DNA of 64,000 bases from an uncultured Trichococcus sp. (GTDB lineage: Bacteria > Bacillota > Bacilli > Lactobacillales > Aerococcaceae): positions 2,345,001-2,409,000 of the forward strand of contig NZ_OY764015.1 in the NCBI RefSeq assembly GCF_963667775.1, given 5' to 3'. Position 1 is the first letter of the stretch; each line of letters opens with the position of its first letter. Below, piece after piece: positions 10,382 to 38,543 of the stretch. A model generated the notes under the pieces. The model did no database searches. It saw only the letters and a program-made list of their open reading frames with translations, and was not told the DNA's origin. The translations under genes and the position numbers were made by a program.

Positions 10382-11098
10382 TTACAATGGATTTTTGTTC
10401 GGTGTCCCGGCTTTTCTCGGGTAGGTCTTCGGCGTTTCTTTCGTTTTCTTGATCTTCACGATATGGCGTTCGCCTGCATTATTCGGCAGTTCAAAAAAGA
10501 TATCCTCTTCGAGTTTGCCGCCCAGAGTTGCGATGGCGCGCTCTGCATCGTGGAGCTCTTCTTCCGTGCTGGCCGCTTTCATCGCGACAAAAGTCCCGCC
10601 TTTTTTGACCAGCGGCAAACACAGTTCGCTCAGGACACTCAAGCGCGCGACCGCACGTGCCGTCACCACATCGAATTGGGCGCGGAATTTCTTGTTCTGT
10701 CCGAAAGTCTCCGCACGATCATGGAAACAGGAAACCCCCGTCAAACCTAATTCGGCAACCAGAGTCTCCAGGAAAGTGATCCGTTTGTTCAATGAGTCCA
10801 CAATCGTCACCTGCAATTTCGGGAAGGCGATCTTGAGCGGGATGCTCGGGAACCCGGCACCGGCACCCACATCGCAAAGCGTGACTTCCTCTTTGGTGAA
10901 ATCCATGTGGAATCCCAATGAGATGGAGTCATAGAAATGCTTCAGATAGACTTCATCCGGCTCGGTGATGGCTGTCAGGTTGATTTTTTCGTTCCATTCG
11001 CGCAATAGGCGCAAATAAGTTGCGTATTGTTCGAGTTGCGTTTCATTCAAAAGGATCCCTTTTTCGGCAAGGGCCTGGGCAAATTGTTCTGGATTCAT
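10382..11098 (-). CDS. rsmG: 16S rRNA (guanine-N7) methyltransferase RsmG (GidB)
   Basis: SAM-dependent enzyme that methylates G527 of 16S rRNA. The 238-residue product matches the usual family length. It has the SAM-binding motif [26 protein letters not shown] and the [12 protein letters not shown] region. I begin at [10 protein letters not shown] because AAAGGAAAC is 6-8 nt before that ATG; five further upstream codons are in frame but unsupported. Gene order rsmG-parA-parB is classic for Firmicutes. Confidence 0.95.
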
Positions 11099-11228: not shown

Positions 11229-11257
11229 TATAAACACGAACATTACGATGAAGTCAA
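11229..11257 (-). promoter_or_regulatory. rsmG promoter with an embedded PurBox-like site
   Basis: TTGACT (11257-11252) and TTTATA (11234-11229) are 17 nt apart on the complement. On the plus strand AAACACGAACATT (11232-11244) lies in the spacer and -10. It matches the PurBox consensus at 11 of 13 positions. No partner box is found at the 19-nt spacing. Confidence 0.5.
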
Positions 11258-11333: not shown

Positions 11334-11378
11334 AAACACGAACTTTCAATATTAATTTTTTCTAATTTGTTCGCTTTA
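11334..11378. promoter_or_regulatory. PurBox pair upstream of the ABC transporter operon
   Basis: AAACACGAACTTT (11334-11346; 11 of 13 to AWWWCCGAACWWT) faces TTTGTTCGCTTTA (11366-11378; 10 of 13 to the inverted form) with 19 nt between. The pair ends 3 nt before the -35 of the promoter below. Same geometry as at purE, purC and guaB. Suggests PurR control of the transporter/deaminase genes. Confidence 0.65.
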
Positions 11379-11381
11379 TCC

Positions 11382-11410
11382 TTGAATTAAAGTGATCGGT
11401 TCTATATAAT
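11382..11410 (+). promoter_or_regulatory. Promoter of the ABC transporter operon
   Basis: TTGAAT and TATAAT separated by 17 nt, about 110 nt upstream of the first permease gene. Confidence 0.8.
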
Positions 11411-11523
11411 CGGCACTATATTATTTTTCGTTAGTGGCCAGACTATTCCAAACGTCCTTTTTTATGACATCCAAATACGGACAATACAGAAATACTGTTC
11501 ACTAAAGAGGGAGGAATTACTGC

Positions 11524-12363
11524 ATGTCGTCAAAATCGATCCCGTACCTGCTTGCCGCACCGGGATTCATCCTGCTGATCGTCTTTCTCGTGCTGCCGTT
11601 GGTCTCCATTATTTGGCCGACTTTTTTTGATGGCAATCTGACTTTCGCATCCTACAGCGCTTTTTTTCAGGACTCCTATAATGTGAGCATCTTCATGCGT
11701 ACATTACGGATTTCATTGGTCGTCACTTTCTTTTGTGCTCTTTTCGGTGTCCCTGTTGCCTATTATATCGCTCGGGCAGACAAAAAATTCCGCAGCCTGA
11801 TGATGGCATTAGTTCTTTTTCCGCTTCTGACCAACTCGGTTGTCCGCAGTTTTGCCTGGATCAATATCCTTGGGCAAAAAGGAGTCGTCAACAATCTCTT
11901 GCTGGCAACAGGCATCATTGATGCTCCGATTCCGCTGCTTTACAGCGAATTCGCAATCTCGATCGGATCGATCTATCTGTTCTTGCCGCTGATGGTGATC
12001 ACCTTGGTGGGGATCATCGAAAATATCGACACCGAAATCATGGAAGCAGCAGAAACTCTGGGTGCCAATCGTTTGACCGCCTTCCTGAAGGTGATCCTAC
12101 CGTTGAGCGTACCAGGCATCATCGTGGGCAGCATCCTCGTCTTCACAGGCACCTTGACCGCCTATACAACACCGCAACTGCTGGGCGGAAACAAAAACAT
12201 GATGCTATCGACATTCCTCTACCAAAATGCCATGACCTTGGGCAACTGGACGAATGCCAGCGTCATCGCACTGATCATGATCGTGACGACTCTGATCGTC
12301 ATGAAAATCTTTAATCTGATTGCATCCGTAATCGATAAGCGAGGTGAAGAACAACATGCGTAA
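11524..12363 (+). CDS. ABC transporter permease, PotB family
   Basis: First of two membrane subunits of an importer of the spermidine/putrescine-type family. The 279-residue protein has six predicted membrane helices and the permease EAA loop (EAAETLGANRLTAFLKVILP, about 177-196) that contacts the ATPase. A GAGGGAGGAAT ribosome-binding site precedes the ATG. It overlaps the next permease by 8 nt. Family membership usually implies polyamines, but the PurBox pair upstream and the two purine deaminase genes downstream suggest a purine base or nucleoside as substrate (inference). Confidence 0.9.
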   Translation: MSSKSIPYLLAAPGFILLIVFLVLPLVSIIWPTFFDGNLTFASYSAFFQDSYNVSIFMRTLRISLVVTFFCALFGVPVAYYIARADKKFRSLMMALVLFPLLTNSVVRSFAWINILGQKGVVNNLLLATGIIDAPIPLLYSEFAISIGSIYLFLPLMVITLVGIIENIDTEIMEAAETLGANRLTAFLKVILPLSVPGIIVGSILVFTGTLTAYTTPQLLGGNKNMMLSTFLYQNAMTLGNWTNASVIALIMIVTTLIVMKIFNLIASVIDKRGEEQHA

Positions 12364-13135
12364 AGAAAAGGGTCTTACATTCTTTGTTTCGCTGGTCTAT
12401 GCCTTCCTGTTCATCCCTTTATTCATCATCGTGGTCACTTCTTTCGGCGAGAACCCGACCATCCAATTCCCGATTGAAGGCTTTTCTTTCAAATGGTATG
12501 CAAATGTATTCGAAAATGCCGCTTTTGCGGACAGCTTCCTGTTGAGCCTGCAGATTTCCTTCTCTGCCACCATACTGGCGCTACTGGTCGGAGTTCCCGC
12601 ATCTTATGCACTATCCCGCAATAACTTCATGGGCCGTGAGTGGTTGAAAAGCTTCTTCCTTTCGCCGACCATCATACCCGGTGTCGTTGTCGGCTACTCG
12701 TTGTTCCAGTTCATTGTCATCACCCTGCAGTTGCCTGTTTTCCAAGGGCTGTTGTTGGGACACTTTCTGGTCAGCCTACCCTACATCATCCGCGTCGTAG
12801 GAGGCAGTCTGGAACAGTTGGATTTCTCCATCGAAGAAGCAGCTTGGACATTAGGCAGCACGAAAGCGGGCGCCTTTTTCAAAGTAATTTTGCCGAACAT
12901 CACATCAGGCATATTCGCTTCATTCATGTTGGCATTCATCAATTCCTTCAACAATATTCCTGTTTCTCAGTTTTTGTCAGGTCCTGGGATTTCGACATTA
13001 CCGACTACTTTGATGAGTTACGTTGAATACAACTATGATCCCACCGTCTCGGCGCTCTCCGTACTTCTGATGCTGGCAACTATCTTGTTGATGTATCTGA
13101 TCGAAAAGACGCTCGGACTGTCCTCGATTACCTGA
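12356..13135 (+). CDS. ABC transporter permease, PotC family
   Basis: Second membrane subunit of the same importer; 259 residues, six predicted membrane helices, EAA loop EEAAWTLGSTKAGAFFKVIL in the C-terminal half. GAGGTG lies 9 nt before the chosen ATG; an upstream in-frame GTG is part of that ribosome-binding site and is less likely. The overlap with the preceding permease implies coupled translation. Confidence 0.9.
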   Translation: MRKEKGLTFFVSLVYAFLFIPLFIIVVTSFGENPTIQFPIEGFSFKWYANVFENAAFADSFLLSLQISFSATILALLVGVPASYALSRNNFMGREWLKSFFLSPTIIPGVVVGYSLFQFIVITLQLPVFQGLLLGHFLVSLPYIIRVVGGSLEQLDFSIEEAAWTLGSTKAGAFFKVILPNITSGIFASFMLAFINSFNNIPVSQFLSGPGISTLPTTLMSYVEYNYDPTVSALSVLLMLATILLMYLIEKTLGLSSIT

Positions 13136-13167
13136 TTTTTCAAACTATAAAGGAGGAACATGCATAA

Positions 13168-14205
13168 ATGGCTTTTGTTGATTTAAATGATATCCGCGTC
13201 AGTTATGACGGGAAAAACGATATTCTGAAAGATTTGAACCTCGCGATGGAGAAAGGTGAACTGGTTTCCTTATTGGGGCCATCCGGTTGCGGAAAAACGA
13301 CTACCCTACGCGTCATTGCAGGGCTGATTGAACCTAATGACGGCAATTTTACAGTCGATGGTACCAACTTGACGAAAGTCCCGGTGCACAAACGGAATTT
13401 CGGGATGGTATTCCAGTCCTATGCGCTTTTTCCGCATTTGACCATCCGTGAAAATGTCGGCTTCGGCTTGAAGCTGCGGAAAGAAAAAAAAGAACAGATC
13501 GATCAAAAAGTTGCAGCAATGCTGGAAGTCACCGGCTTGGCCGAGTTTGCCGAACGCTATCCGAAGCAATTATCCGGAGGACAACGCCAACGTGTCGCCT
13601 TGGCGCGGGCACTGGTCATCGAGCCTAAGTTGCTGTTGCTGGATGAACCGTTGAGTAACCTTGATGCAAAACTGCGCATCTCCATGCGTATCGAAATCAA
13701 ACGAATCCAGCGTCAACTGGGGATAACGACCGTATTCGTCACACATGACCAAGAGGAGTGCTTCTCCATTTCGGACAAAGTCGCTGTCATGAACAAAGGC
13801 ATCATCGAACAGTTCGCTTCCCCCGAAGAGATCTACAGCAATCCGAGCACTGAATTTGTCGCACGTTTCATCGGATTCGAAAACTTTATCGCGCTTACTG
13901 CAACAGAGGCACAAACATTCACTGCAGCGGACGGCTCTTCGTTCAGCACAACCCGCTCGACTGACCGCAAAGAAGTCACCGGCACCATACGTCCGGACGA
14001 CATTATCCTAAAAACCATTGCGGAACAATCCGGAAATACGATAGCGGGAACCGTTCTGGTCCGTACATTCCTGGGCAAGAGCTACCAATACGAAGTGGAA
14101 ACGCCACTAGGAAAACTGCTGGTGAACGGAACCAATGAAGCCGCTCATCAAGCTGGCGACAAGGTACATCTGTTCCTGCCGCCCTCAAAAATTGTTTTAG
14201 TGTAA
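13168..14205 (+). CDS. ABC transporter ATP-binding protein, PotA family
   Basis: Energises the importer. The 345 residues include Walker A GPSGCGKTT (37-45), signature LSGGQRQR (135-142), Walker B LLLLDEP (155-161) and the H-loop TVFVTHD. A C-terminal TOBE domain (about 265-345, TGTIRPDDIIL onwards) is typical of PotA/MalK-type subunits. AGGAGGAA precedes the start. Confidence 0.93.
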   Translation: MAFVDLNDIRVSYDGKNDILKDLNLAMEKGELVSLLGPSGCGKTTTLRVIAGLIEPNDGNFTVDGTNLTKVPVHKRNFGMVFQSYALFPHLTIRENVGFGLKLRKEKKEQIDQKVAAMLEVTGLAEFAERYPKQLSGGQRQRVALARALVIEPKLLLLDEPLSNLDAKLRISMRIEIKRIQRQLGITTVFVTHDQEECFSISDKVAVMNKGIIEQFASPEEIYSNPSTEFVARFIGFENFIALTATEAQTFTAADGSSFSTTRSTDRKEVTGTIRPDDIILKTIAEQSGNTIAGTVLVRTFLGKSYQYEVETPLGKLLVNGTNEAAHQAGDKVHLFLPPSKIVLV

Positions 14206-14237
14206 TAACAAAAAAATAGAAAAAGGGGTTTTATCAA

Positions 14238-15311
14238 ATGAAAAATTGGAAATGGATCAGCCTATCTTTAGCAAGTACAGCACTTTTGGCAGCCTGCGGA
14301 AATGGTGGCAGCACAGCGGACAGCTCGGCTGAAGCCGGATCGGAAACAAGCAGCGAATTGACTGTTTCGACCTTCGCGATCGGGGAAGATGTCATCCGCG
14401 CGGATGTTTTCGCCCCATTTGAGGAAGAAAACGGCATTACCATCGTTGCCGAAGTCGGAAACAGCAGCGAGCGCTTCACGAAATTCCAAAATAACCCGAA
14501 CAATACGATCGATGTGATCGAATTGTCCCAAGCCAATGCAGCATCCGGCGTTTCCGAGGGCCTTTTCGAGCCATTGGATGAAACAAAAGTACCGAATATC
14601 GCGAACCTGATCGACAGCGCCAAAGGATTGACGGAAGATGGATCCGGTCCTGCCTACACCATCAACAGCATCGGCATCATCTATGATGAGGCAGCCGCTG
14701 GCATGACAATCGACGAATGGTCTGACCTTTGGGATCCGTCTTTAGCAGGAAAAATCTCCATCCCTGACATCACAACGACTTTCGGGCCAGCTATGATCCA
14801 CGTAGCGAGCGACTTCAAAGGAACGGACATCACAACCGATAATGGAACAGCCGCATTCGAAGCTTTGACTGAACTGAAACCGAATATCGTCAAAACCTAT
14901 ACAAAATCTTCTGACTTGGCAAACATGTTCCAATCAGGTGAAATTGTGGCGGCAGTCGTTGGTGATTTCGCTTATCCGATCATTTCAGGCTCAAATCCGG
15001 ATGTACAATACGTCGTCCCTGAATCAGGCACATACGCTAACTTCAACACATTGAATGTCAACAAAAACTCCGAAAACAAAGAATTGGCTTATGCCTACAT
15101 CAACTGGAAGTTGAGCAAGGAACTGCAAGAAGTGACTGCCATCTCGTTGAACGAAGCACCAACAAACAAAGAAGTCGTTTTGGATGAAGCAACAGCAGCG
15201 AACAAAACCTACGGCGCTGTTGCCGAGCGCGCAAAAGCGATCGATTTCACCTTCGTGAACGAAAACTACGCAGCTTGGATCGCAGAATGGAACAAGACGC
15301 TGAATCAATAA
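14238..15311 (+). CDS. Substrate-binding lipoprotein of the ABC transporter (PotD family)
   Basis: Extracellular receptor anchored by lipid. The 357-residue protein has a signal peptide with lipobox LLAAC (modified C20) and a Ser/Ala/Glu-rich linker. The type 1 periplasmic-binding fold includes ELTVSTFAIGEDVIRADVFAPFE, later YTINSIGIIYDE and SGEIVAAVVGDFAY. It is last of the four transporter genes and is followed by a strong hairpin. The substrate is not known; context argues for a purine-related compound rather than a polyamine. Confidence 0.9.
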   Translation: MKNWKWISLSLASTALLAACGNGGSTADSSAEAGSETSSELTVSTFAIGEDVIRADVFAPFEEENGITIVAEVGNSSERFTKFQNNPNNTIDVIELSQANAASGVSEGLFEPLDETKVPNIANLIDSAKGLTEDGSGPAYTINSIGIIYDEAAAGMTIDEWSDLWDPSLAGKISIPDITTTFGPAMIHVASDFKGTDITTDNGTAAFEALTELKPNIVKTYTKSSDLANMFQSGEIVAAVVGDFAYPIISGSNPDVQYVVPESGTYANFNTLNVNKNSENKELAYAYINWKLSKELQEVTAISLNEAPTNKEVVLDEATAANKTYGAVAERAKAIDFTFVNENYAAWIAEWNKTLNQ

Positions 15312-15319
15312 GCAATGCC

Positions 15320-15346
15320 AAAAGCCACGGCGCAGCCGTGGCTTTT
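15320..15346 (+). terminator. Hairpin terminator after the binding protein
   Basis: AAAAGCCACGGC and GCCGTGGCTTTT form a perfect stem around GCA. The T-run is short, so read-through into the adenine deaminase gene is plausible. A TATAAT at 15363-15368 could give a separate start but lacks a clear -35. Confidence 0.75.
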
Positions 15347-15396
15347 CCTGTATCCCTTAATCTATAATAGTGAAAAGACCATTTTAGGAGGCCCTT

Positions 15397-17109
15397 ATGC
15401 AAATCGACCTAATCATCGCAAACGCGAAAGTCTTCAACAGTTTCCTGAAGACTTTCGAACGAAAAAACATCGCCATCGCGGGTGAAAGATTCTATTATAT
15501 CAGCACGGAAGACCTTCAGTCGTTGCAACCGAAAGAAACGGTGGATGCGTCCGGGCAATATGTGATCCCCGGATTGATCGACATCCATATGCACATCGAA
15601 AGTTCCATGATCCCCCCATCCCTTTTCTCGGGGGCAGCACTGTCTTATGGTGTCACCACTGTTGTTGCCGATGCTCATGAGATAACCAATGTTTTTGGCT
15701 TGGAAGGCATGGAGGCTTTTCTGGCGGAAGATACCGCACTTGACATCTACTACGCGATTCCGTCATCTGTTCCGTCCACCACGCCCGAATTGGAGACCAC
15801 AGGCGGGTTCATCGGAGTGAAAGAAGTGAGCAGCCTCTTGGATAATCCGCGTGTCATCGCCCTTGGGGAAGCCATGAATTTCAAAGGCATCACCAGCGAA
15901 CCGGATTCTCTGATCCGTCAGATTCTCAGGGAAACGCAGCTAAAGAAACCGTTTATGCCGCTGGAAGGTCATGTTCCGCGCGTTTCCGGAGTCGACTTGG
16001 CAAAATTCATGTATGCCGGCATCACTGCGGATCACACCCACCAAAGCCCTGAATCAATCTATGAAAAAATCAGCAACGGCATGTTTCTGGAGTTCCAGAA
16101 GAAATCCATCCTCCCTGAAAACATGGCTGTCCTTGAGAAGTACGATTTCTATGAATATGCAGCGATCATAACCGATGATATCATGGCGGATGACCTGCTG
16201 GATGGCCATCTGGATGCCAATGTCCGCGCCGCCATCGCAGCCGGTATGCCGATCGAACAGGCCATTTACTGCACGACCTATACACCAGCCAGGCGTATGG
16301 GCTTTCAGGACCGCGGCGCCATCGTTGCCGGCTTCAAAGCAGATTTCATTCTGTTGGATGATCTGGAGACACTTGAGATCAATGCGGTCTATAAAAACGG
16401 AAAGCTGGTGCATACAAAAGGTGCGGCTATGGCTTATCCTGCCGAAAAGCCGACTTTTCCGGCGCACTTCTATGACTCCGTCCGCTGCCGCAACTTGACT
16501 GCCGATGATCTGCGGATCCCGGTGGCAACAACGGATACCTCAGTCATCTGTAACGTCATCCAGATCCAACCAGTCGGTACTTTCACCGAACCGGTCCAAC
16601 GTGAAATTCCGGTGAAAGACGGCTTCCTGGACTGGGAGAACAGCGGATTGGCGCTTATCGTTGTGATGGAGCGCTACGGAAAAAACGGAAATATCGGCTT
16701 CGGATTGGTCGAAAATGCGTTGACGCAAAAAGGCGCAGTCGCAACGACCTGGGCGCATGATCACCATAACCTGATGGTGATGGGAACCGATGCAGCGGAT
16801 ATGCTTGCCGCCCAACAAGAACTCCTTTCCCTGCATGGCGGCTATATCGTTGTTCAGGACGGAACTATTCTCGGATCCTGTCCGCTCCCGATCGGCGGCA
16901 TCCTGAGTGATGTCCCGGTTCAGACATTGGGCCACCAACTTCACGCTGTCCGTTCCGCCATGGTTTCCTTGGGATACCGGAACGGCAATGAAATCATGAG
17001 CTTCTCGACCTTATCTTTACCGGTGTCACCGGCCATCAAAATAACTGATTACGGCATGATGGATGTGCATACCCATGCAACCATCCCGTTGATTGCGAGG
17101 GAAAAATGA
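15397..17109 (+). CDS. ade: Adenine deaminase
   Basis: Metal-dependent amidohydrolase converting adenine to hypoxanthine and ammonia. The 570 residues match the usual ade length. Metal-binding HMH is in IDIHMHIESS (H64, H66), followed by VADAHEI, the HVPRVSG and TADHTHQSPE regions, and the C-terminal domain with TTWAHDHHNLMVMG, all typical of Ade rather than adenosine deaminase. GGAGG lies 8 nt before the ATG. The last codons overlap the next gene's start as ATGA. Hypoxanthine can enter IMP by salvage, fitting the PurBox control of the upstream operon. Confidence 0.95.
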   Translation: MQIDLIIANAKVFNSFLKTFERKNIAIAGERFYYISTEDLQSLQPKETVDASGQYVIPGLIDIHMHIESSMIPPSLFSGAALSYGVTTVVADAHEITNVFGLEGMEAFLAEDTALDIYYAIPSSVPSTTPELETTGGFIGVKEVSSLLDNPRVIALGEAMNFKGITSEPDSLIRQILRETQLKKPFMPLEGHVPRVSGVDLAKFMYAGITADHTHQSPESIYEKISNGMFLEFQKKSILPENMAVLEKYDFYEYAAIITDDIMADDLLDGHLDANVRAAIAAGMPIEQAIYCTTYTPARRMGFQDRGAIVAGFKADFILLDDLETLEINAVYKNGKLVHTKGAAMAYPAEKPTFPAHFYDSVRCRNLTADDLRIPVATTDTSVICNVIQIQPVGTFTEPVQREIPVKDGFLDWENSGLALIVVMERYGKNGNIGFGLVENALTQKGAVATTWAHDHHNLMVMGTDAADMLAAQQELLSLHGGYIVVQDGTILGSCPLPIGGILSDVPVQTLGHQLHAVRSAMVSLGYRNGNEIMSFSTLSLPVSPAIKITDYGMMDVHTHATIPLIAREK

Positions 17110-18434
17110 GAACACTGATCACAAATGTTACTGCGCTGACGATGAACACGGAGTATGATGTCTTCGAAAAGGGCTTCATCCTTTTCGAAGATGACCGCAT
17201 ACTTGCTGTTGGACCGGCTGAACAGCAGCCGGATACTGGCTATGATCGGATGATTGATGGAAGGAATGCCATCGCCATGCCCGGCATGGTGAACACCCAC
17301 ACCCATATCGGCATGATTCCCTTCCGCTCCCTCGGCGACGACACTCCGGATCGGTTGCGCCGGTTCCTCTTCCCTTTGGAAAAAGCCTGCATGACCAAAG
17401 AATTGGCATACCATAGCGGCAAGTACGCCATCGCCGAGATGCAGTTGGCGGGCGTGACCACCTTCATGGATATGTATTATTTTGAAGATGAACTGGCACA
17501 GGCAGCGGATGAAATGCAGGCGCGGGCCATCCTGGGGGAAACGGTCATCGACTTCGCTACTTGCGACACAAGCGATCCGCACGGCGGCTTGAGTTACGCG
17601 GAAACGTTCATCCCGAAATGGCTCGACCACGAGTTGATTACGCCTGCCATCGCGCCGCATGCCCCCAACACGAACAGCCCGCAAGCCTTGCAAGAAGCGG
17701 CTGCCATCGCGGAAAAATACGGAGTTCCGATCAGTTTGCATCTGAGTGAAATGGACTATGAAATCCGCCACTTTCAGGAAGAGTATGGAAAAACACCGGT
17801 AGCCTTTCTGGCTGACTTGGGTGTGTTGAGTGAGCGGCTCATCGCCGCCCACTGCATCCATGTCACACCCGAAGATATCGCCTTATTGAAGCGATATGAC
17901 GTAGCAGTCGCTCACTGCATCGGGGCGAATACGAAATCCGCCAAAGGGGTTGCACCTGTGAAAGCCATGCTGGAGGCAGGCATCCGGGTCGGCCTGGGAA
18001 CGGACGGTCCAAGCAGCGGGAACACATTGGATCTGTTTACCCAAATGCGCATGTTCGCGAATTTCCACAAAACCCATCTTCAGGATCGCGCAGCCTTCCC
18101 GGCGCGGGATATCGTCCGCCTGGCAACACTCGGAGGCGCCGAAGTGTTGGGATTGGCCGACAAAACCGGCTCGCTGGAAGCAGGAAAAAAGGCTGATATC
18201 GTCCTCGTCGAAACGGACTCCGCAAATATGTTCCCGATATTCGATCCATACGCTGTATTGGTTTATTCCGCAAATGCCGGGAATGTATCGGATGTCTTCA
18301 TCAATGGGGTTCCCATCGTTTCCGGCAAACGGTTGCTCACACAAGACCTGGCCGCTTTGAGGACTGCTTTGGCATCCGAAATGCAAGACTTCATCAAGCA
18401 AGCAGAACGAAATGAAAAAAAGACAATCCTATGA
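17106..18434 (+). CDS. Amidohydrolase of the MTA/SAH deaminase family
   Basis: Deaminates an adenine-bearing nucleoside in related proteins (5'-methylthioadenosine, S-adenosylhomocysteine or adenosine). The 442-residue protein has metal ligands in PGMVNTHTHIGM (H65, H67), then PISLHLSEM, ERLIAAHCIHV and the catalytic Asp in GLGTDGPSS. An ALGGAEVLG/GSLEAGKKADIVL tail is shared with MtaD/SsnA/guanine deaminase relatives. Translation is coupled to ade through an ATGA overlap. Which substrate it prefers cannot be read from sequence; guanine deaminase is less likely because the motif spacing resembles MTA/SAH deaminase. Confidence 0.85.
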   Translation: MRTLITNVTALTMNTEYDVFEKGFILFEDDRILAVGPAEQQPDTGYDRMIDGRNAIAMPGMVNTHTHIGMIPFRSLGDDTPDRLRRFLFPLEKACMTKELAYHSGKYAIAEMQLAGVTTFMDMYYFEDELAQAADEMQARAILGETVIDFATCDTSDPHGGLSYAETFIPKWLDHELITPAIAPHAPNTNSPQALQEAAAIAEKYGVPISLHLSEMDYEIRHFQEEYGKTPVAFLADLGVLSERLIAAHCIHVTPEDIALLKRYDVAVAHCIGANTKSAKGVAPVKAMLEAGIRVGLGTDGPSSGNTLDLFTQMRMFANFHKTHLQDRAAFPARDIVRLATLGGAEVLGLADKTGSLEAGKKADIVLVETDSANMFPIFDPYAVLVYSANAGNVSDVFINGVPIVSGKRLLTQDLAALRTALASEMQDFIKQAERNEKKTIL

Positions 18435-18437
18435 TCG

Positions 18438-18479
18438 TCAAAAAGCCGCTGTCCCGAATAAAGGACAGCGGCTTTTTCA
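18438..18479. terminator. Bidirectional terminator
   Basis: AAAAAGCCGCTGTCC (18440-18454) pairs perfectly with GGACAGCGGCTTTTT (18463-18477). It serves the deaminase gene on the plus strand and the HAD gene on the minus strand. Confidence 0.92.
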
Positions 18480-19148: not shown

Positions 19149-19499
19149 CTTCCATCTTCCCTTCGATCGCAAATATGAACCAGATGCGGACCATAGAGGT
19201 GACCTCTACTTTTAACGCAGCTGCTCAAAAATTCCGAATGTTCACTATAATCAAAATTATAACAAACAAAAACGACAGAATAATGAGGTTTTATTTAGAA
19301 TTTGGAAAGAAATACCTATTTTCAACCCTATAAAACCAGATATTCACGAACATTAGAAGGAAATGTAATTATGAACGTACTGATTTTGAACCTCCAATGC
19401 TTACCCGTTGTGGTCTCCATCTGTGGACAGGGGTAATTGACGGAATATCAAAATTTGCGTATGCTTTTGAGTAAATCCAGAAAGGGAGTTGGAAACGAA
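19149..19499. other. Divergent gap between the HAD and GIY-YIG genes
   Basis: AT-rich. The complement holds a TATAAT (19261-19256) that may serve the HAD gene. The plus strand holds a possible PurBox pair (19342-19386). It also holds a 21-codon open frame, 19371-19436 (MNVLILNLQC...), with AGAAGG upstream. Its stop directly precedes the GIY-YIG frame, so it could be a leader peptide or a relic. Confidence 0.4.
19342..19386. promoter_or_regulatory. Possible PurBox pair
   Basis: ATTCACGAACATT (19342-19354; 11 of 13) and AACGTACTGATTT (19374-19386; 10 of 13 but with core mismatches) at the same 19-nt spacing as the other pairs. Weaker than the others and could be chance. Confidence 0.3.
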
Positions 19500-19856
19500 A
19501 TGACACAGAGAAAAGAACTGCGACGCCAATTCGAAGAGGTGCCGATTGAAGCAGGCATCTACGAAGTACAGAATACGGAAAACCAAAAGATTTTCATCGG
19601 CAAAACCCCTAACCTGAAGACTTTGAATGGCATGAAACATATTTTGAATATGGGTGCGAACAACAACAAGGAACTCCAAGCCGATTGGAACCACTTCGGG
19701 CAGGATGCCTTCACGTTTACAATTTTGGAAGTGGTTGAAAAGAGCGAGGACCCTTCCTTCAACGAGAAGAAAGCCTTGGAACAACTGGAGGAGAAATGGC
19801 TGATCGAAAAGCAACCTTTCGGGGAGCGCGGCTACAACCGCAAACCTAAAGCATAA
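19500..19856 (+). CDS. GIY-YIG domain protein
   Basis: A 118-residue protein with a reduced GIY-YIG fold: AGIYEVQNTENQKIFIGKTPNLKT carries GIY and FIG (in place of YIG), followed by a GANNNKELQADWNHFGQDAFTFTILE stretch typical of the family. GIY-YIG proteins are often nucleases, but here the second motif is changed and only a few catalytic residues are evident, so activity is uncertain. The ATG follows GGGAG by about 12 nt; an upstream TTG in frame is less likely. Confidence 0.7.
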   Translation: MTQRKELRRQFEEVPIEAGIYEVQNTENQKIFIGKTPNLKTLNGMKHILNMGANNNKELQADWNHFGQDAFTFTILEVVEKSEDPSFNEKKALEQLEEKWLIEKQPFGERGYNRKPKA

Positions 19857-19889
19857 AGACTGGCTAACTTTCCAATAAACAGAAAATCC

Positions 19890-20060
19890 GAACTCCGGCG
19901 AGCCTAGGCTTCGCCGGAGTTCGTTCTGCATTTTTGTGCGTTCTCCGGCGAGCCTGTCTTCCCCGGAGTTGAGGTCAAAAGTTAAGTTGTCTTCCGGTGG
20001 ACGGGTCTTTCAGCGGAGCTGAGTCCGTGTTCCGCTTCGCGCTCCTCCGTCCAACGGCAC
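19890..20060. repeat. Cluster of CCGG-rich palindromes
   Basis: GAACTCCGGCGA/TTCGCCGGAGTTC (19890-19922) is a perfect hairpin that could end the GIY-YIG transcript. It is followed by further imperfect inverted repeats built on CTCCGG and CCGGAG. Similar CGGAG-based palindromes occur after gyrA (62240-62470). Confidence 0.5.
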
Positions 20061-20063: not shown

Positions 20064-20106
20064 AAAAAAGAAGGGCTCTCAATTGACTCGAGAGCCCTTC
20101 TTTTTT
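20064..20106. terminator. Bidirectional terminator after thiD
   Basis: AAAAGAAGGGCTCTC (20066-20080) pairs with GAGAGCCCTTCTTTTTT. The long T-run on both strands suits the thi operon and whatever reads rightwards. Confidence 0.9.
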
Positions 20107-20899
20107 AGTTGATGCGATAAGCGTGATTGAGTGGGCCGCTGCCCTTGCCCAGATCCAGTCCGTCGCGGAGCGCGCCGGTGATGTAGGCTTTGGCTTGGCG
20201 GATGCTCGCTTCCATTCCGTGGCCTAAAGCCAGATTCGCTGCGATGGCTGAGGAAAGCGTGCAGCCGGTGCCATGCGTATTCGGGTTTTCGATCCGTTCC
20301 GACTCGAACCAACTGACTTTTCCGTCCATAAAGAGCAGATCGTCGGCGCTGTCCCTCAGATGGCCGCCCTTCAGGAGCACGCTGGTTCCCGCTGCTGAAG
20401 CGATGCGCTCCGCCGAAGCCAGCATATCCGCCTTCGTCTCGATTTTGACACCGCTCAGCACCTCTCCTTCCGGCACATTGGGGGTGATCACATCAGCCAA
20501 CGGCAACAACAGCGTCCGCAAAGCCTGGCTGGCATCGTCCTGCATCAGGCTGCTGCCGCTTGTGGCCACCATGACCGGATCCACGACGATGTTTTCTGCT
20601 TTGTATTCTGCCAGCTTCTCCGCGATGACTTTGATGATTGCGGCGTTCGACACCATGCCGATCTTCACCGCATCCGGCCGGATATCCTCAAAGACGCAAT
20701 CCAACTGCTGCGCCACAAATTCAGGCGTCACTTCCATGATTCCGGCAACCCCTGTCGTGTTCTGTGCCGTCAGCGCCGTGATCACGCTCATCCCATAGAC
20801 TTTATGCGCCATCATCGTCTTCAGGTCCGCTTGAATCCCCGCTCCGCCGCTGCTGTCAGAACCGGCGATCGTCAATACTATTTTCATGTTTTTGCTCAT
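20105..20899 (-). CDS. thiD: Hydroxymethylpyrimidine/phosphomethylpyrimidine kinase
   Basis: Phosphorylates HMP to HMP-P and HMP-PP for thiamine synthesis. About 264 residues; ribokinase-fold signatures LTIAGSDSSGGAGIQADLKT at the start, VVDPVMVATSG in the middle and the anion-hole NTHGTGCTLSSAIAANLALG near the end. The start used here (MSKNMKIV) overlaps the preceding HAD stop as ATGA; the ATG four codons later is an alternative. Last gene of the thiM-thiE-HAD-thiD operon. Confidence 0.95.
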   Translation of the reverse strand: MSKNMKIVLTIAGSDSSGGAGIQADLKTMMAHKVYGMSVITALTAQNTTGVAGIMEVTPEFVAQQLDCVFEDIRPDAVKIGMVSNAAIIKVIAEKLAEYKAENIVVDPVMVATSGSSLMQDDASQALRTLLLPLADVITPNVPEGEVLSGVKIETKADMLASAERIASAAGTSVLLKGGHLRDSADDLLFMDGKVSWFESERIENPNTHGTGCTLSSAIAANLALGHGMEASIRQAKAYITGALRDGLDLGKGSGPLNHAYRIN

Positions 20900-21537
20900 C
20901 CTTTCCAATCCGAAAATGAATAAATGTACTGCTCCGTCATCGCTTCGATGCGCTCCCTATCCTGTGCCGCCGTCTCATCATAGACGCCGACTACCCGGAA
21001 ACCGGCTGCTGTTGCCGTTTCGATGGCGTGCAGGGCATCCTCAAAGATGACGGTCTTCGTGAGGGGAGCCCCGAGATGTTCGAACGCCCGCTGAAAAATG
21101 AGCGGATTGTCTTTGCCCGCCTTTACTTCACTGCTGGTCAGGATGGTGCTGAAATATTCCCGGATGCCCAAACGCTCCAAGGCGCTCTCGGCCAAATTCC
21201 TTTCGGTCGCAGTGGCGATGCACATCTTCACATTCTGTGCCTGCAATTTCTGCAGGTATTCCGCTGTGCCGGCTTTAAGCGGGACTTCATAACGGTAAAG
21301 ATCCGCAATCAGCGTTTCAATTTCCCCAATGATTGTCTCTTCATCTTCGTGCAATCCGTAGTCCGCTCGAAAATGTTGTGCGGCTTGCTGCAGGCTCATC
21401 GTCTTCAACGCATCCTGCAATCCAGGAGCCGGCTGCAGCTTTTTCTGAAGCAAATAATTTTCTCCCAATCCTTGCCAGATCGGCATGGAATCCAGCAGCG
21501 TCCCGTCCAGATCGAAGATGGCTGCTTCCAGTTTCAT
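20896..21537 (-). CDS. HAD-superfamily hydrolase in the thiamine operon
   Basis: A 213-residue beta-phosphoglucomutase-like HAD protein with motif I AIFDLDGTLLDS, a helical cap (about 18-85), motif II CIATATERNLAE, and VIFEDALHAIETATAAGFRVVGV. It is wedged between thiE and thiD with 4-nt overlaps on both sides (ATGA), so it is made together with the thiamine salvage enzymes. A role as a phosphatase in thiamine metabolism, for example on thiamine monophosphate or HMP-P, is a reasonable inference but not shown by the sequence. Confidence 0.88.
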   Translation of the reverse strand: MKLEAAIFDLDGTLLDSMPIWQGLGENYLLQKKLQPAPGLQDALKTMSLQQAAQHFRADYGLHEDEETIIGEIETLIADLYRYEVPLKAGTAEYLQKLQAQNVKMCIATATERNLAESALERLGIREYFSTILTSSEVKAGKDNPLIFQRAFEHLGAPLTKTVIFEDALHAIETATAAGFRVVGVYDETAAQDRERIEAMTEQYIYSFSDWKG

Positions 21538-22175
21538 GGTTGCACCATCGCTTCGGCTAACGGGCGCAGCCGCTTAACGGCCGCGGTGATGTTCGGCTGC
21601 GCAAAGATGGCGGATACGACGGCAACCCCATCGATGCCGCTGCCCTTCAGGTTGGGGATATTCCCTTCAGCAATGCCTCCGATCCCCACAACGGGTATGC
21701 TCACCGCCCGGCAGATCTGCTGCAGCGTTTCGATCGATAGCGTGTTGGCATCCGGCTTCGTCGCTGTGCTGTAGATGGCACCGACGCCCAGATAATCGGC
21801 CCCGTTCCGTTCCGCCATCAGCGCCTCCTCGACGGAATGGGCAGAAACGCCCAGAATTTTTCCCTCGCCGATCCGGCTGCGGACATCTCCCGCCTGCATA
21901 TCGCTCTGTCCCACATGAACGCCATCCGCATCCAGCGCCAAGGCCACATCCACGGCATCATTGATGATGAAGGGAACGCGGTGGCGTTTGGCCACGGCCT
22001 GCAGTTCCTTGCCCAGGGAGACAAAGGCATCAAAATCCAGTTCCTTCTCGCGCAATTGCACGACGGTAACGCCCGCCTGGATGGCTTCTTCAAGCTGTTC
22101 CGCCAAGGACGCGTTCCCCAGCCATTGGCGATCGGTCACCGCGTAAAGCAGCAAATCGTTCTTATCTAGTCTCAA
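21534..22175 (-). CDS. thiE: Thiamine-phosphate synthase
   Basis: Joins HMP-PP and THZ-P to give thiamine phosphate. The 213-residue TIM barrel shows LLLYAVTDRQWL at the start, VTVVQLREKELD, PFIINDAVDVALALDADGVHVGQ and later LGVGAIYSTATKPDA and PVVGIGGI. I use a TTG start because AAGGGGG lies 8 nt upstream, giving a normal length and a 14-nt overlap with thiM; the ATG 16 codons upstream would overlap thiM by 62 nt and add an unfamiliar extension. Confidence 0.93.
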   Translation of the reverse strand: MRLDKNDLLLYAVTDRQWLGNASLAEQLEEAIQAGVTVVQLREKELDFDAFVSLGKELQAVAKRHRVPFIINDAVDVALALDADGVHVGQSDMQAGDVRSRIGEGKILGVSAHSVEEALMAERNGADYLGVGAIYSTATKPDANTLSIETLQQICRAVSIPVVGIGGIAEGNIPNLKGSGIDGVAVVSAIFAQPNITAAVKRLRPLAEAMVQP

Positions 22176-22986
22176 TTTTAGCGCCCCCTTCCAGTTTTTC
22201 GGCCGACATCTTGCTGATTTCATCGATGATGTAGCTGCGGTAGGATGAAGTCCCTGCGGCAGTGCGGATCATCCTTTCGTGAGCCAGCTCGCCGCTGACC
22301 CCCATCAGGCATACCGCTGCCGCGGTGGCATCCAGCAACTGCTCCGGGTTGGCTCCGCAATAGGCGGCAATCAATGCCGACAGCATGCAGCCGGTTCCGG
22401 ACACCTTCGCCATCTGCGGATGCCCGTTGCGGATGATGTAGGCTTTGTCCCGATCCGCAACGATGTCGATCGCTCCGGTGATCGCGACGATCGCCTCGTT
22501 CCGGTCGGCCAATCGTTTGGCGAACGCGACCGTTGCCTCGAGCGTCTCCTCGGTCACTGCATCGCTGATGTCAGCATCGACACCTTTTGTCGTGCCGCTG
22601 CCGGAATGGATCGTCTTCATTTCCGAAATGTTCCCTTTGATCACGGTGAAGGCAATGTCCTCCAGCAATCTGAAGGTCACTTCGGTCCGGAAAGGGGATG
22701 CCCCCGCGCCGACCGGATCCAAAACGACGGGATGGGCGAGCGCATTGGCTTGGCGTCCCGCCAGCAACATCGATTCCACAGCCCGGCTGTTCAGTGTTCC
22801 GATGTTCAGGTTCAGGGCGGTGCAGATGCTTGTGATTTCCGCGACTTCCTCGGGGGCATCCGCCATGATCGGCGTCCCGCCGGCAGCCAAGAGGGCATTG
22901 GCGACATCATTGACGGTGACATAATTGGTGATGCAGTGGACCAGCGGCGTCTGTCGCTGTACATTCTCGAATAGCGTTTTGAACAT
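22162..22986 (-). CDS. thiM: Hydroxyethylthiazole kinase
   Basis: Phosphorylates the thiazole alcohol for salvage into thiamine. The 274 residues contain PLVHCITNYVTVNDVANALLAAGGTPIM, VLDPVGAGASPFR, and GNISEMKTI; the nucleotide/anion region is KVSGTGCMLSALIAAY. First gene behind the TPP riboswitch, with GGAGGTA before the ATG. Together with thiE and thiD this makes a salvage rather than a full synthesis pathway. Confidence 0.96.
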   Translation of the reverse strand: MFKTLFENVQRQTPLVHCITNYVTVNDVANALLAAGGTPIMADAPEEVAEITSICTALNLNIGTLNSRAVESMLLAGRQANALAHPVVLDPVGAGASPFRTEVTFRLLEDIAFTVIKGNISEMKTIHSGSGTTKGVDADISDAVTEETLEATVAFAKRLADRNEAIVAITGAIDIVADRDKAYIIRNGHPQMAKVSGTGCMLSALIAAYCGANPEQLLDATAAAVCLMGVSGELAHERMIRTAAGTSSYRSYIIDEISKMSAEKLEGGAKIETR

Positions 22987-32976: not shown

Positions 32977-34436
32977 CAAACTTGTCCTCCCTTTAGATTC
33001 TCTTTTTGGATAGCTGTCATATTGTTCACGTAATCCGCTTCATAGTCGTACAGCCCAGTCGGGTAGTCCCCGTTGAAGCTGTCCATGCACAAGCCTGAAT
33101 ACGGCATATCAAATTTCAAACCGATCGAATCGATCAGACCCTCTTGGCTAAGGAAAGCCAAGCTGTCCGCACCGATATATGCGCAGATTTCATCGACCGT
33201 CATTTTAGCGGCGATCAGTTCGGCTGACTTGCTGATGTCGATTCCGTAGAAACTTGGGTAGATCAAAGGCGGGGAAGAGATGCGGACATGCACTTCTTTG
33301 GCTCCCGCTTCTTTCAACAAAGTCACGATGCGTTTGCTGGTCGTCCCGCGCACGATGGAATCATCCACCATGACGACGCTTTTGCCCTGGACAACCCCTT
33401 TTACGGCGGATAATTTCATTTTCACGCCCAATTCGCGCAGTTCCTGCGTCGGTTGGATGAACGTACGTCCGACATATTGGTTCTTGATCAGGCCCATTTC
33501 GTAAGGCGTTCCGCTTTCTTCCGCGAATCCGCTCGCCGCGGACAAGGAAGAGTTGGGCACACCGATGACGATATCCGCAGTCACTGCCGGTGCTTCGATA
33601 GCCAAACGTGTTCCCATGCGTTTGCGCGCTGTATGCACGTTCACCCCGGCAATATTCGAATCCGGACGCGCGAAGTAGATATACTCCATCGCAGCGATGG
33701 AGATGGTTGTATCATCGGTATATTTTTCGATCGTCAAGCCGTTGTCGTCAATGATCGCCAGTTCTCCGGCGTTGACGTTGCGGACAAAATCAGCGCCGAT
33801 CGTATCGATGGCGCACGTTTCGCTGGCCATCACATACGCGCCATTAGGCAATTGGCCGATGACAAGCGGACGGAATGAATTCGGATCGACGGCACCGAAC
33901 ATTTTCTCTTCAGTCAAAAGGATATACGTGAAGCCACCCTTGACCTGATTCAAGCTCTCTTTGATCTTTTCGATCAGGCTGTCTTTCTGGCTGCGTCTGA
34001 TCAGATGCATCAGAACTTCCGTATCCGAAGTCGAATGGAAGATGGCGCCGTTTTCCTCAAGATTGCGGCGCAATGATTTGGCGTTCACTAAGTTGCCGTT
34101 GTGGCAAATGGCGATGTCCATATCATAGAAATGGTACAAAAACGGCTGCACATTCTCGATGCTGTTCTGTCCGGAAGTCGAGTAACGCACATGCCCGATG
34201 GCACGGTTACCGGTTAATCTTTGCAGATCATTTCCGTCCTTGAAGACTTCGCTGATCAGCCCCAGATTGCGGTGCACCAACAATTTTCCTTCATCACATG
34301 AAACTATCCCTGCACCCTCTTGTCCACGGTGCTGCAAGCTGTGCAAACCGAAGTAAGTCAACTGGCTGGCATTGTCGTCTCCCCAAATGCCGAATACGCC
34401 ACATTCTTCGTTTAAGCTTTTTGTTTCAGCAAGCAT
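32976..34436 (-). CDS. purF: Amidophosphoribosyltransferase
   Basis: First committed step: PRPP plus glutamine to phosphoribosylamine. The 486-residue precursor starts [17 protein letters not shown]12 would become the N-terminal nucleophile after removal of an 11-residue propeptide, as in Bacillus PurF. The PRPP-binding loop [16 protein letters not shown] is present. Cysteines in the C-terminal half (SGLCMD) are consistent with an Fe-S type enzyme. Chosen ATG has GGAGG 7 nt upstream and lies within the purL end (25-nt overlap). Confidence 0.97.
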
Positions 34437-36640
34437 GGAATAGCCTCCTCCCATTTCGATTGTACTTCTTTTACGTCCAAAGTGATTGTTTCGTTCACGG
34501 CAACGATTTTCGCCGTGGCATCTTCTGTTACGTTACCGATTTGTGCAGCAGCTGATCCGAAGATCGCTTCCACAGCGGCAACATTTTCAGGTTTCACACT
34601 CAGGATGAAGCGTGATTGCGTTTCGCTGAACAGCAACGTTTTATCCATATCAACCGTTACGTCGAAACCTAAGCCAGTGTCAAAGACGCTCTCCATCAAG
34701 CCGACAGCCAAACCGCCTTCAGACAAGTCATGCGCGCTGGCGATCAAGCCGGCTTTGATAGCTTTCAGGACATTCGCTTGGTTTTCTTTTTCGACAGCCA
34801 AGTCAAAGTCCATCAGTTTGCCTTCGATTTTGCCCAATTCCATTTTTTGCAGTTCGGAACCGTTGAAATCAGCTTTGGTTTCGCCGATCAGGATAATGCG
34901 GTCGCCAGCAGCTTTGAAAGTTTGCGTTGTGATGTGTGCAAGATCCTCGATCAGACCGACCATACCGATCATCGGTGTCGGATAAACGGCTACGCCGTCG
35001 GTTTCATTGTAAAGGGACACGTTACCTGAGATGACCGGCGTATCCAATTGGCGGCAAGCTTCGGAGATGCCGTCCGCGGAAGTGCTCAATTCCCAGAAAA
35101 TTTCTGGCTTATCAGGATTTCCGTAGTTCAAGCAGTCTGTGATCGCCAATGGTTTTCCGCCGCTGGCAACGATATTGCGGGCAGCTTCAGCGACAGCGAT
35201 CTGTCCGCCGATTTCCGGGTTCAAATACAGGTAACGGCCGTTGCAGTCCGTTGTCATTGCGATCGCTTTTTTGGTGCCGCGGACGCGGACAACTGCAGCA
35301 TCGCTTCCTGGGCCTACAACCGTGCTGGTGCGGACCATGGAATCATAGGTGTCATAGACGTTCTTCTTGGAAGCCAACGTCGCTTGTTGCAATAAAGCCA
35401 CTAATGTATCCTGCGCTGATGTGAAGGCAGGTTTGTAGTCTTCCATAGCCGCAAATGCAGCGATGCGGGCAGGCACTGCAGTCGGCTTGTAGTAGACCGG
35501 AGCATCTTCAGCCAAAGCATCAACCGGAAGTTCAGCCACCACTTTGCCAGCATGAGACAGACGGTACATGCCATCATCGGTAACTTCACCGATCACGACT
35601 GCATCCAATTCATATTTTTTGAACAGGTCGACGATGCGTTGCTCTTCGCCCTTCTTGATGCACAGCAGCATACGCTCCTGCGACTCGGAAAGCATCATTT
35701 CGTAAGGTGTCATTTCTGTTTCGCGTTGGGGAACGTCATCAAGGTTCAACAGCAAGCCGCTGCCTGCTTTTGAAGCCATTTCCGAACTGGAGGAGACCAA
35801 ACCGGCCGCACCCATGTCCTGGATACCGATCAAAGCGTCGGAGTAGTCATAAATGCATTCCAAACAAGCTTCCATCAATAATTTTTCCATGAACGGATCG
35901 CCCACTTGGACAGCCGAACGTTGTGCTTCTTCCTCTTCCTTGAATTCTTCGGAAGCGAAAGTGGCGCCATGGATACCATCGCGGCCGGTTTTTGCACCCA
36001 CGTACATGATCGAGTTGCCGACTCCGGCAGCTTGACCTTTTTGCATATCTTTCTGATCGATCAAGCCGACGCACATTGCATTGACCAGTGGATTGCCTTT
36101 GTAGCAAGGGTCGAAGACCGTTTCGCCGCCGACAGTCGGGATGCCGATACAGTTGCCGTAACCGCTGATGCCGGCAACGACTTCTTCGAAGATGTGTTTC
36201 GTACGCTCATTGTCCAATTCGCCGAAACGCAAAGAGTCAAGGATCGCAATCGGGCGTGCGCCCATGCTGAAGATGTCACGGATGATTCCGCCGACACCGG
36301 TAGCTGCGCCTTCATAAGGTTCGACAGCTGATGGGTGGTTGTGGCTTTCCGCTTTGAAAACAACAGCCTGGCCGTCGCCGATATCCACGATACCAGCACC
36401 CTCACCAGGTCCTTGCAATACTTGCGGGCCGGTAGTAGGGAATTTTCTCAGGACTGGTTTTGAATTTTTATAAGAACAGTGTTCGCTCCACATAACGGCA
36501 AACAGGCCAGTTTCAGTATAGTTCGGCAAACGATGCAAAATTTTATCGCAGATCGTGCCGTACTCTTCGTCTGTCAGACCCCATTCACGATAAATTTTGG
36601 ACTCTTTTACTTGTTCTGGCGTTGGTTCTAAAAATGCCAT
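34412..36640 (-). CDS. purL: Phosphoribosylformylglycinamidine synthase, large subunit
   Basis: ATP-dependent synthase working in a complex with PurQ (glutaminase) and PurS. The 742-residue length is the small Gram-positive type that lacks the fused glutaminase. Motifs: [19 protein letters not shown] near residue 50, [29 protein letters not shown] (from about residue 93), and [13 protein letters not shown] near the end. Its ATG overlaps the purQ stop by one base (TAATG). Confidence 0.97.
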
Positions 36641-37320
36641 TATTTGTTCAGCTCCTTCTTATAATTTTCAACCATGGATTGGAACAGTCGCAAGCCATCC
36701 GCTGATCCCAATAAAGCTTCGACAGCACGCTCCGGATGAGGCATCATGCCGAGGACGTTGCCTTTTTTGTTGATGATGCCGGCGATGTCCTCGATGCTGC
36801 CGTTCGGATTGCCGTTTGCATAAGTGAATACGATTTGATTGTTGGCTTTCAGGTCAGCCAAAGTCTCTGCATCGCAGAAATAGTTTCCTTCACCATGCGC
36901 GATCGGAACAGAGATGATTTCGCCTTCTTTATAGAGGGAAGTGAATTGCGTATCGGCATTCACGACTTTCAGATCCTGCGGTTTGCAGACGAATTTCAAA
37001 GTATCATTGCGGCGTAAAGCACCAGGCAATAAGCCGGCTTCAGCCAAAATCTGGAACCCGTTGCAAGTGCCGAATACAGGTTTGCCTTCTTCAGCGAAAC
37101 GGACAACTTCGCTCATGATGTTAGAAAAACGGGCAATCGCACCTGTACGCAAGTAATCGCCATAAGTGAATCCGCCGGGCAATAGGACAGCATCGAAACC
37201 TTCAAGACTTGTTTCATAATGTTGCACATACTCTGCATCTTCTCCAAGAATATCTTTAATGGCTGCATACATATCTAAATCACAGTTAGATCCAGGAAAA
37301 ACGATGACAGCGAATTTCAT
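36640..37320 (-). CDS. purQ: Phosphoribosylformylglycinamidine synthase, glutaminase subunit
   Basis: Supplies ammonia from glutamine to PurL. The 226 residues form a class I glutamine amidotransferase with nucleophile C86 in [22 protein letters not shown] at the start and [10 protein letters not shown] with the catalytic His/Glu. The start overlaps the purS stop by one base. Confidence 0.97.
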
Positions 37321-37571
37321 TAAGCTTCAACCTCCTGGATTTCGTAACGGTAAGTTTCCATGACCACGTTCGCCAACAATTTGTCGCAGATCTCTTCGAT
37401 GACTTGTTCAACGTTCTCTTCATCTTTGGAGACTTGGATTTCGAAATATTTTCCGATGCGAATATCTTCGATCGTCGGGTAGCCCATACGGTGGACGGCA
37501 CCCTTTACGGCTTCCCCTTGCGGATCCAATACTGAGTCTTTATACGTTACATACACGGTTACTTTATACAT
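37320..37571 (-). CDS. purS: Phosphoribosylformylglycinamidine synthase subunit PurS
   Basis: Small subunit that bridges PurQ and PurL. The 83 residues match the family: [22 protein letters not shown] and a C-terminal [26 protein letters not shown] start at MYKV (GAGGAA 8 nt upstream); the longer frame upstream is a lysine-rich run from an A-rich gap and is not real coding sequence. Confidence 0.95.
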
Positions 37572-37640
37572 GTCCAAATTCCTCGCTTTTGTTTTTTTAT
37601 TTTTTGTTTTTTGTTTTTTCGTCGGTTGCATTCGGATGGC

Positions 37641-38354
37641 TTACAGTTTGTTCAGGCGATCCAGCACTTCCACGTAGACAGGAATCAGATCTCCCAAGTC
37701 ACGGCGGTAGATGTCTTTATCCAAATGTTCATTCGTTTCGATATCCCAAAGGCGGCATGTATCCGGTGAGATTTCATCAGCCAGGATGATTTCTCCCTCA
37801 GCTGTCTTGCCGAATTCGATTTTGAAATCGATCAGGCGGATGCCGATTGCCTTGAACATCTCGATCAAGGCTGCATTGATCTTCAGCGCTTGCTGCTTGA
37901 TTTCGGCAACTTCTTCTTCAGTCGCTGCTCCAAGGACTTGTACATGGGCATCATTGATGAAAGGATCATTGAGCGCATCGTCTTTGTAGTAGAATTCCAA
38001 AACAGGGAACGGCAAGTCGATGCCTTCCTCCATGCCGAAACGTTTCGCGAAGCTTCCAGCAGCTACATTGCGGACAACCACTTCCAATGGGAACATATTG
38101 ACTCTTTTTACTGATTGTTCGGTTTCTGACAGTTCTTGGATGTAATGGCTCGCGATACCCTTTTCAGCCAGATACTCGAAGATGCGGCCGGTGATCTGAT
38201 TATTGAGTCTGCCTTTGCCTTCGATAGTGTCCTTCTTTACGCCGTTTAATGCGGTGGCCTGATTTAGGTATTCTGCCCAAAGGACATTCTCCTGATCCGT
38301 AGCGTACATCTTTTTAGCTTTCCCAGTATAAAGCAATTCTTTTCTTTCCATCAT
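37641..38354 (-). CDS. purC: SAICAR synthetase
   Basis: Joins aspartate to CAIR. The 237 residues show KKELLYTGKAKKMYATD-like opening (ERKELLYTGKAKKMY), the basic VEVVVRNVAAGSFAKRFGMEEG region, and LIDFKIEFGKTAEGEIILADEISPDTCRLWD. Two ATGs in a row; AGGAAGGG is upstream of both. It is the first gene of the purC-purD unit, with its own promoter and a PurBox pair in the leader. Confidence 0.97.
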   Translation of the reverse strand: MMERKELLYTGKAKKMYATDQENVLWAEYLNQATALNGVKKDTIEGKGRLNNQITGRIFEYLAEKGIASHYIQELSETEQSVKRVNMFPLEVVVRNVAAGSFAKRFGMEEGIDLPFPVLEFYYKDDALNDPFINDAHVQVLGAATEEEVAEIKQQALKINAALIEMFKAIGIRLIDFKIEFGKTAEGEIILADEISPDTCRLWDIETNEHLDKDIYRRDLGDLIPVYVEVLDRLNKL

Positions 38355-38368
38355 TCCCGTCCCTTCCT

Positions 38369-38413
38369 AAAACCGAACATTAATTTATATAAACACCTTA
38401 TTCATTCGTTTAT
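38369..38413. promoter_or_regulatory. PurBox pair at purC
   Basis: AAAACCGAACATT (38369-38381) is a perfect match to AWWWCCGAACWWT. TTCATTCGTTTAT (38401-38413) is a weaker inverted partner, 19 nt away. The pair covers the transcription start and leader, downstream of the -10, which would suit repression. Confidence 0.75.
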
Positions 38414-38541: not shown

Positions 38542-38543
38542 AA

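Follow-up and report, generated by a model that had tools for sequence, protein, structure and literature searches.

Which compound does an ATP-binding cassette (ABC) importer of the polyamine type carry when its genes lie in one run with two deaminase-type enzymes, behind a pair of PurBoxes? The question is raised by a 64,000-nucleotide stretch of an uncultured Trichococcus sp. (contig NZ_OY764015.1, positions 2,345,001 to 2,409,000), here called the window. An earlier note on this DNA, made from the letters alone, had proposed that an importer of the PotABCD type is controlled by purines and supplies purine salvage, and, as far as sequence can tell, this proposal is borne out by the conserved content of the operon, PurBox pairs by the -35, riboswitches, and the loss of the PotD residues E171, W255 and D257. 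The importer very probably brings in a purine compound under purine control. That its ligand is an adenine nucleoside in particular has roughly an even chance, and the full reading, a purine-repressed operon with an importer probably for adenosine-type nucleosides and with its own enzymes, feeding deamination to inosine monophosphate (IMP), seems slightly more probable than its contrary. Gene calls and domain and model scans, made with the 3.3-Mb Trichococcus genome, gave six same-strand genes, potB-potC-potA-potD-ade-mtaD, as an operon-like run with a promoter and a strong terminator:

11232..11244, plus strand: single PurBox-like site AAACACGAACATT, further upstream than the pair; a second one, CGAACATT, begins at 11280
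11334..11373, plus strand: PurBox pair, inverted CGAAC...GTTCG, AAACACGAACTTT...AATTTGTTCG, with a CGAA-to-TTCG core of 35 nt at 11339-11373
11382..11410, plus strand: sigma-A type promoter, hexamer pair TTGAAT-17-TATAAT
11524..12363, plus strand: potB-like permease (PotB model 172 bits, under the cut-off of 348)
12344..13135, plus strand: potC-like permease (PotC model 143 bits, under the cut-off of 326)
13168..14205, plus strand: potA-like ATPase with TOBE domain (domain and model scans)
14238..15311, plus strand: potD-type lipoprotein solute-binding protein, N-terminus with LAAC lipobox
15397..17109, plus strand: ade, adenine-deaminase paralogue of a dedicated subfamily (model scans, motifs, tree)
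17106..18434, plus strand: mtaD, amidohydrolase of the methylthioadenosine (MTA)/S-adenosylhomocysteine (SAH)/adenosine-deaminase type (model scans), overlapping ade by ATGA
18440..18477, plus strand: intrinsic terminator with a 15-bp stem, closing the operon

All parts of the importer core were present, that is, two binding-protein-dependent permeases, a PotA-type TOBE ATPase and a PotD-fold lipoprotein. The genes, their coordinates and strand and the ATGA coupling of ade and mtaD, as claimed before, came out unchanged from re-derived gene calls.

The PurBox pair, which the earlier note had placed directly before the -35 of the importer operon, is real in form and place, ending at 11373 with 8 nt to the TTGAAT of the potB promoter. 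The 19-nt spacing given there is an alternative drawing of the box edges of what is here a 35-nt CGAA-to-TTCG core. In the part of PMC8789054 that describes them, the PurBoxes of Bacillus subtilis are 14 bp long with a central CGAA, have a 16-17 bp spacer and stand directly before the -35 of pur genes; by our own arithmetic such boxes would have cores of 34-35 nt, matching the pair in the window. The window site therefore has the features of a PurR regulon of the B. subtilis type, a pair with a 16-17 bp spacer near the -35. A PurR gene is encoded in the genome (PF09182, 113.9 bits), a second pair with an equal 35-nt core (38374-38408, one box being CGAAT) was found ahead of purC in the same window, and single PurBox-like sites also lie ahead of purR and of the gene of an NCS2-type permease, named from its translation. 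The second pair sits between purB and purC in a purE-purK-purB-purC-...-purQ-purL cluster on the minus strand (34412-41458, names from translations). Another PurBox-like site, AAACACGAACATT, was seen about 25-45 bases ahead of a cytidine-deaminase-like gene, again named from translation, at G000:C1:251457 (L076).

Counting such sites in this one genome did not single out the pair. The loose pair pattern was not enriched in the window (58 observed, 70.7 expected), nor was the strict CGAACWW-N15-30-WWGTTCG in the genome (5 places against 10 in the reversed control), and strict single boxes matched 45 times genome-wide and 35 times in the reversed control, the neighbours being read for the 30 that became loci. 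Since the pair was not significant within one genome, its conservation across relatives was used instead. For this purpose, the binding protein only was taken as query against public genomes, giving 47 loci, of which 43 (L023-L065) were 52-96% identical; the other four (L066-L069), weak or partial matches, were dropped before the 43-locus counts. The 300 bases ahead of potB in the 43 loci and the window (n=44) formed the test set. A CGAA-N26-28-TTCG pair was present in 23 of the 44 leaders and a strict single box in 21, where 200 sets of dinucleotide shuffles gave a mean of 0.6 for both and a maximum of 3 and 4, respectively. Of the pairs, 22 of 23 end 7-10 nt ahead of the best -35/-10 hexamer pair. 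The 13,200 bases ahead of potB contained 24 single boxes and 23 pairs, compared with 2 and 4, respectively, in the rest of the non-coding sequence of these loci (92,224 bases, as delimited by a rough mask of open reading frames). Many of the loci come from close species, so that these counts are not independent events, and more weight belongs to their spread over families. CGAAC boxes at distances like those of the upstream single sites of the window were found in L023 and L024, and in three distant Bacilli (L131-L133) PurBox pairs lie ahead of potD, which is there the first gene of the set. The PurBox pair is significant by conservation and not by the statistics of its own genome. In Enterococcus loci such as L048 and L057 a CGAAC box (AAAAACGAACGAGGAG in L048) lies about 24 bases ahead of potB and overlaps the likely ribosome-binding site; it is possibly a second PurR site.

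A second kind of purine control was found in part of the relatives. Seven loci showing no forward consensus box in a first scan (L029, L034, L035, L038, L052, L063, L065) were given to Rfam, and five of them had a purine riboswitch in the potB leader. A model built from these five loci, with a computed structure lacking the known three-way junction, was positive in 8 of the 44 loci, and the three further ones (L027, L033, L039) were confirmed by Rfam at 77-85 bits. The same model found none in 19 further loci and missed one in L138, a locus of the distant Bacilli, that Rfam then found. Together these make at least 9 of 64 loci, a lower bound because Rfam was run on a subset (L029, L034, L035, L038, L052, L063, L065, L131-L139, L027, L033, L039, L156-L158 and the window); no RF00167 aptamer was found in the window by the Rfam scan. 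Within the 300 bases, five of the eight riboswitch loci (L034, L035, L039, L052, L063) lacked boxes and pairs, and L027, L029 and L033 combined both kinds of signal. The ligand-sensing junction reads GACTATG in five aligned aptamers and GACTACG in L039, and the C at that position presumably marks the guanine class of purine riboswitch. Lineages thus appear to differ in the control of the operon, by guanine/hypoxanthine sensing, by PurBoxes, or by both. The L138 stretch, which carries the operon version linked to a purine riboswitch, also has a tetrahydrofolate riboswitch on its minus strand (305-411, RF01831, 82.6 bits). A pair, box or riboswitch was found in 47 loci of the 64-locus set (L051 by a doubtful pair only), from which L129 and L130 had been omitted, their contigs being as long as those of L049 and L061 and the loci therefore treated as duplicates.

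A comparison of gene neighbourhoods, which the earlier note had proposed as a check, was run as well. The identical six-gene order was found in 42 of the 43 loci collected by the binding protein alone. L046 was counted among the 42 although the match to its mtaD is split in two (at 12229-12238, as if interrupted; potA of L147 is likewise split at 10878-10908), and L055 is cut by the contig end after potD; intervening genes amounting to 0.9-1.9 kb separate potD from ade in L056-L058. At E<=1e-60 the binding protein was present in 48 of 398 genomes of the window's class and in 3 of 391 genomes of a second class, Clostridia, where the order of the six genes was the same in 3 of 3. Every locus with an uncut stretch links the importer to ade or mtaD. 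Two variants are informative as to the ligand. In five loci of the same family (L139-L143), fetched because mtaD was seen adjoining potD, mtaD comes after potBCAD, and ade was not detected (5/5). In eight loci of distant Bacilli (families f9, f27 and f43, which we guess to be Paenibacillaceae-like), potD is followed by potB-potC-potA-ade (8/8), and an IunH-type nucleoside hydrolase lies between potD and potB in all six that were translated; the one hydrolase scanned matched PF01156 at 325 bits, with RihC as its best NCBIfam model.

These variants bear on an alternative, that the lipoprotein binds adenine as a free base, which Ade converts to hypoxanthine, and that MtaD separately handles MTA or SAH made in the cell. 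The presence of the Ade paralogue in the eight loci of the distant Bacilli, as well as in those with six genes, would agree with this, and guanine-class riboswitches together with PurR suit a nucleobase route. However, five of five loci keep mtaD without ade, and a nucleoside hydrolase such as that of the distant Bacilli would be needless for a free base; we regard the alternative as rather unlikely. Where mtaD stands alone the imported compound should suit that enzyme, which by its family means an adenine nucleoside, and where nucleoside hydrolase and ade occur together the compound should first be split to the base. Adenosine would fit both variants, and free adenine neither of them well. 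The common theme of the variants appears to be enzymes acting on adenine nucleosides.

The binding protein itself argues against an ordinary polyamine importer that merely stands beside purine genes, with PurR control reflecting a coupling of purines and polyamines via S-adenosylmethionine and MTA. The protein is 56% identical to the solved structure 4edp and 17-19% identical to PotD structures. In PotD, E171, W255 and D257 are taken here to be polyamine-contact residues. In the window protein, in 4edp and in 7 sampled relatives, E171 is replaced by Thr181, W255 by Asn268 (members of the distant type have Val or Ile here) and D257 by Asn270, whereas E, W and D are all retained by another PotD-type protein that the genome encodes (C1:102533). 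No weight was given to D168 of PotD, because that other protein also lacks it. The window protein scored 46.3 bits on the PotD equivalog model (cut-off 582) and 52.9 on that of PotF (cut-off 636). These cut-offs are a weak test, as the other PotD-type protein, at 282 bits, is also below the Escherichia coli-based 582; the comparison of 46 with 282 bits is a further point against polyamine transport. Given in addition the linkage of ade or mtaD in every uncut locus, the polyamine explanation is very improbable.

The two enzymes leave more room for doubt. The earlier note had called the first one adenine deaminase. It has the metal motifs of that family; its score of 368.9 bits lies below the TIGR01178 equivalog cut-off of 472.5, and it is a dedicated paralogue, a canonical Ade, scoring 603.1 bits, being encoded elsewhere in the genome. 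The motifs HxHIES, HE and TDD (H64, H66, E68, H94, E95, H192, H213, D260, D261), which we take to form the metal centre, are invariant in 9 sequences. In a tree, the operon Ades of the groups sampled fall into a single clade of 13 that excludes canonical Ade and 3nqb, two outgroup rows with long branches. MtaD scored 254 bits on PRK15493 (MTA/SAH deaminase), for which the curated cut-off is 779. Its metal-centre residues and the PxE glutamate (H65, H67, E92, H185, H212, E215, H249, D300) are invariant in 10 sequences; in enzymes of this type the PxE glutamate presumably contacts the ribose hydroxyls. Both enzymes being under the curated family cut-offs, the second, canonical Ade and the separate clade of 13 would agree with a PotD-descended binding protein specific for modified purines, for example adenine or adenosine that carries an N6-methyl group and stems from the turnover of nucleic acids, or for nucleoside analogues. 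This is improbable, as is its corollary that dedicated deaminase paralogues, with an Ade distinct from the housekeeping one, yield hypoxanthine or inosine from such compounds. The divergence may reflect just old paralogy, and the long branches of the two outgroup rows weaken the tree.

Several observations weigh against an importer for adenine nucleosides that is under purine control. The operon Ade is 34% identical to the canonical one and far from it, so that adenine as its substrate is not assured, and MtaD reaches the cut-off of none of the 25 NCBIfam models listed of the 49 matched. The alignment behind the pocket comparison has <20% identity, and among the remaining PotD contacts the window protein retains S83 and three members of the distant type retain Y85. 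By the patterns used, 17 of 64 loci have neither box nor riboswitch: 8 of 15 Enterococcaceae, 4 of 8 distant Bacilli, 3 of 3 Clostridia and 2 of 16 of the window's group. Near-miss boxes such as AAAACACGAACGTT or ATACACGAATATTTA remain in several of the Enterococcaceae leaders. L051 was counted as positive on its pair alone, which is the odd one out of 23 in -35 placement and looks like chance. Finally, the binding protein occurs in just 3 of 13 genomes of the genus (its own included, two of the 13 being incomplete), which indicates that it is accessory or repeatedly lost.

Taking the evidence together, we favour the adenine-nucleoside importer and infer its ligand, the direction of transport, the repression and the enzyme substrates. 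With purines plentiful, PurR would occupy the PurBox pair beside the -35 and the operon would be off; a rise in phosphoribosyl pyrophosphate would release PurR, by analogy with PurR of B. subtilis. The lipoprotein would then capture an adenine nucleoside, most likely adenosine and perhaps also adenine, MTA or 5'-deoxyadenosine, with PotBC as the passage inward and PotA supplying the energy. In the cell, the MtaD-type enzyme would deaminate the nucleoside, the Ade paralogue would deaminate base freed by a phosphorylase or nucleosidase, and Hpt would convert hypoxanthine to IMP. The genes for Hpt and an MTA/SAH nucleosidase are present in the genome, so that the route to IMP is possible on paper.

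Other features of the window were recorded in passing. A T-box leader (RF00230, 99.6 bits) lies at 307-539 on the minus strand. Downstream of the operon, a small GIY-YIG open reading frame (139 aa) with a long inverted repeat after it (19889-19923) occupies 19437-19923, and a thiamine-salvage-like cluster on the minus strand (20105-22986; hydroxyethylthiazole kinase, thiamine-phosphate synthase, HAD phosphatase and hydroxymethylpyrimidine (HMP) kinase, by eye) is unrelated to the importer.

Spermidine/putrescine transport is the usual annotation of PotD-type importers. If the present reading is true, a subfamily in Bacilli, Thomasclavelia and some Clostridia is a misannotated purine importer, a concrete and testable candidate with a solved relative, 4edp. 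The loci also show one operon under two different purine sensors by lineage, PurR-type boxes and a purine riboswitch. The earlier note knew of no described importer of this family with a purine role, and none was found among the papers listed from the open-access literature, subscription papers and preprints lying outside the search. The words polyamine, spermidine and nucleoside are absent from the main text of a study of lactic acid bacteria regulons, in the portion available (PMC3616900), and the accessible part of PMC11566853 deals with Ade of Clostridioides difficile, other than this locus. 4edp is an ABC binding protein of Clostridium perfringens whose structure title names no function, and the open-access literature gave none, the sole match for the code being unrelated.

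Among known systems, ABC importers of the BmpA/NupABC type carry nucleosides with a binding protein of a different family. ABC import of nucleosides is likewise proposed here, but the binding protein matched only SBP_bac_8, 6, 1 and 11 in Pfam and no BMP family. Ade (3nqb; TIGR01178) and the operon Ade have the metal-centre motifs in common and differ in score (369 bits against 472.5) and clade. The products of the PurR-controlled uptake genes pbuG, pbuO and xpt-pbuX of B. subtilis are, we assume, not ABC importers. Their PurBox spacing is like that of the window, and they are described as permeases in the relevant part of PMC8789054. According to the available part of a 2026 review, the three major families through which bacteria take up purines and pyrimidines are NCS2, CNT and NHS; ATP-dependent primary transporters also play a part, and there may, it is suspected, be uncharacterized systems (PMC13328217). 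With PotABCD (PotD of E. coli, 1pot; of Streptococcus pneumoniae, 4eqb) the window importer shares two permeases, a TOBE ATPase and the PotD-type fold, but it is without E171, W255 and D257 and comes with a purine operon and purine regulation.

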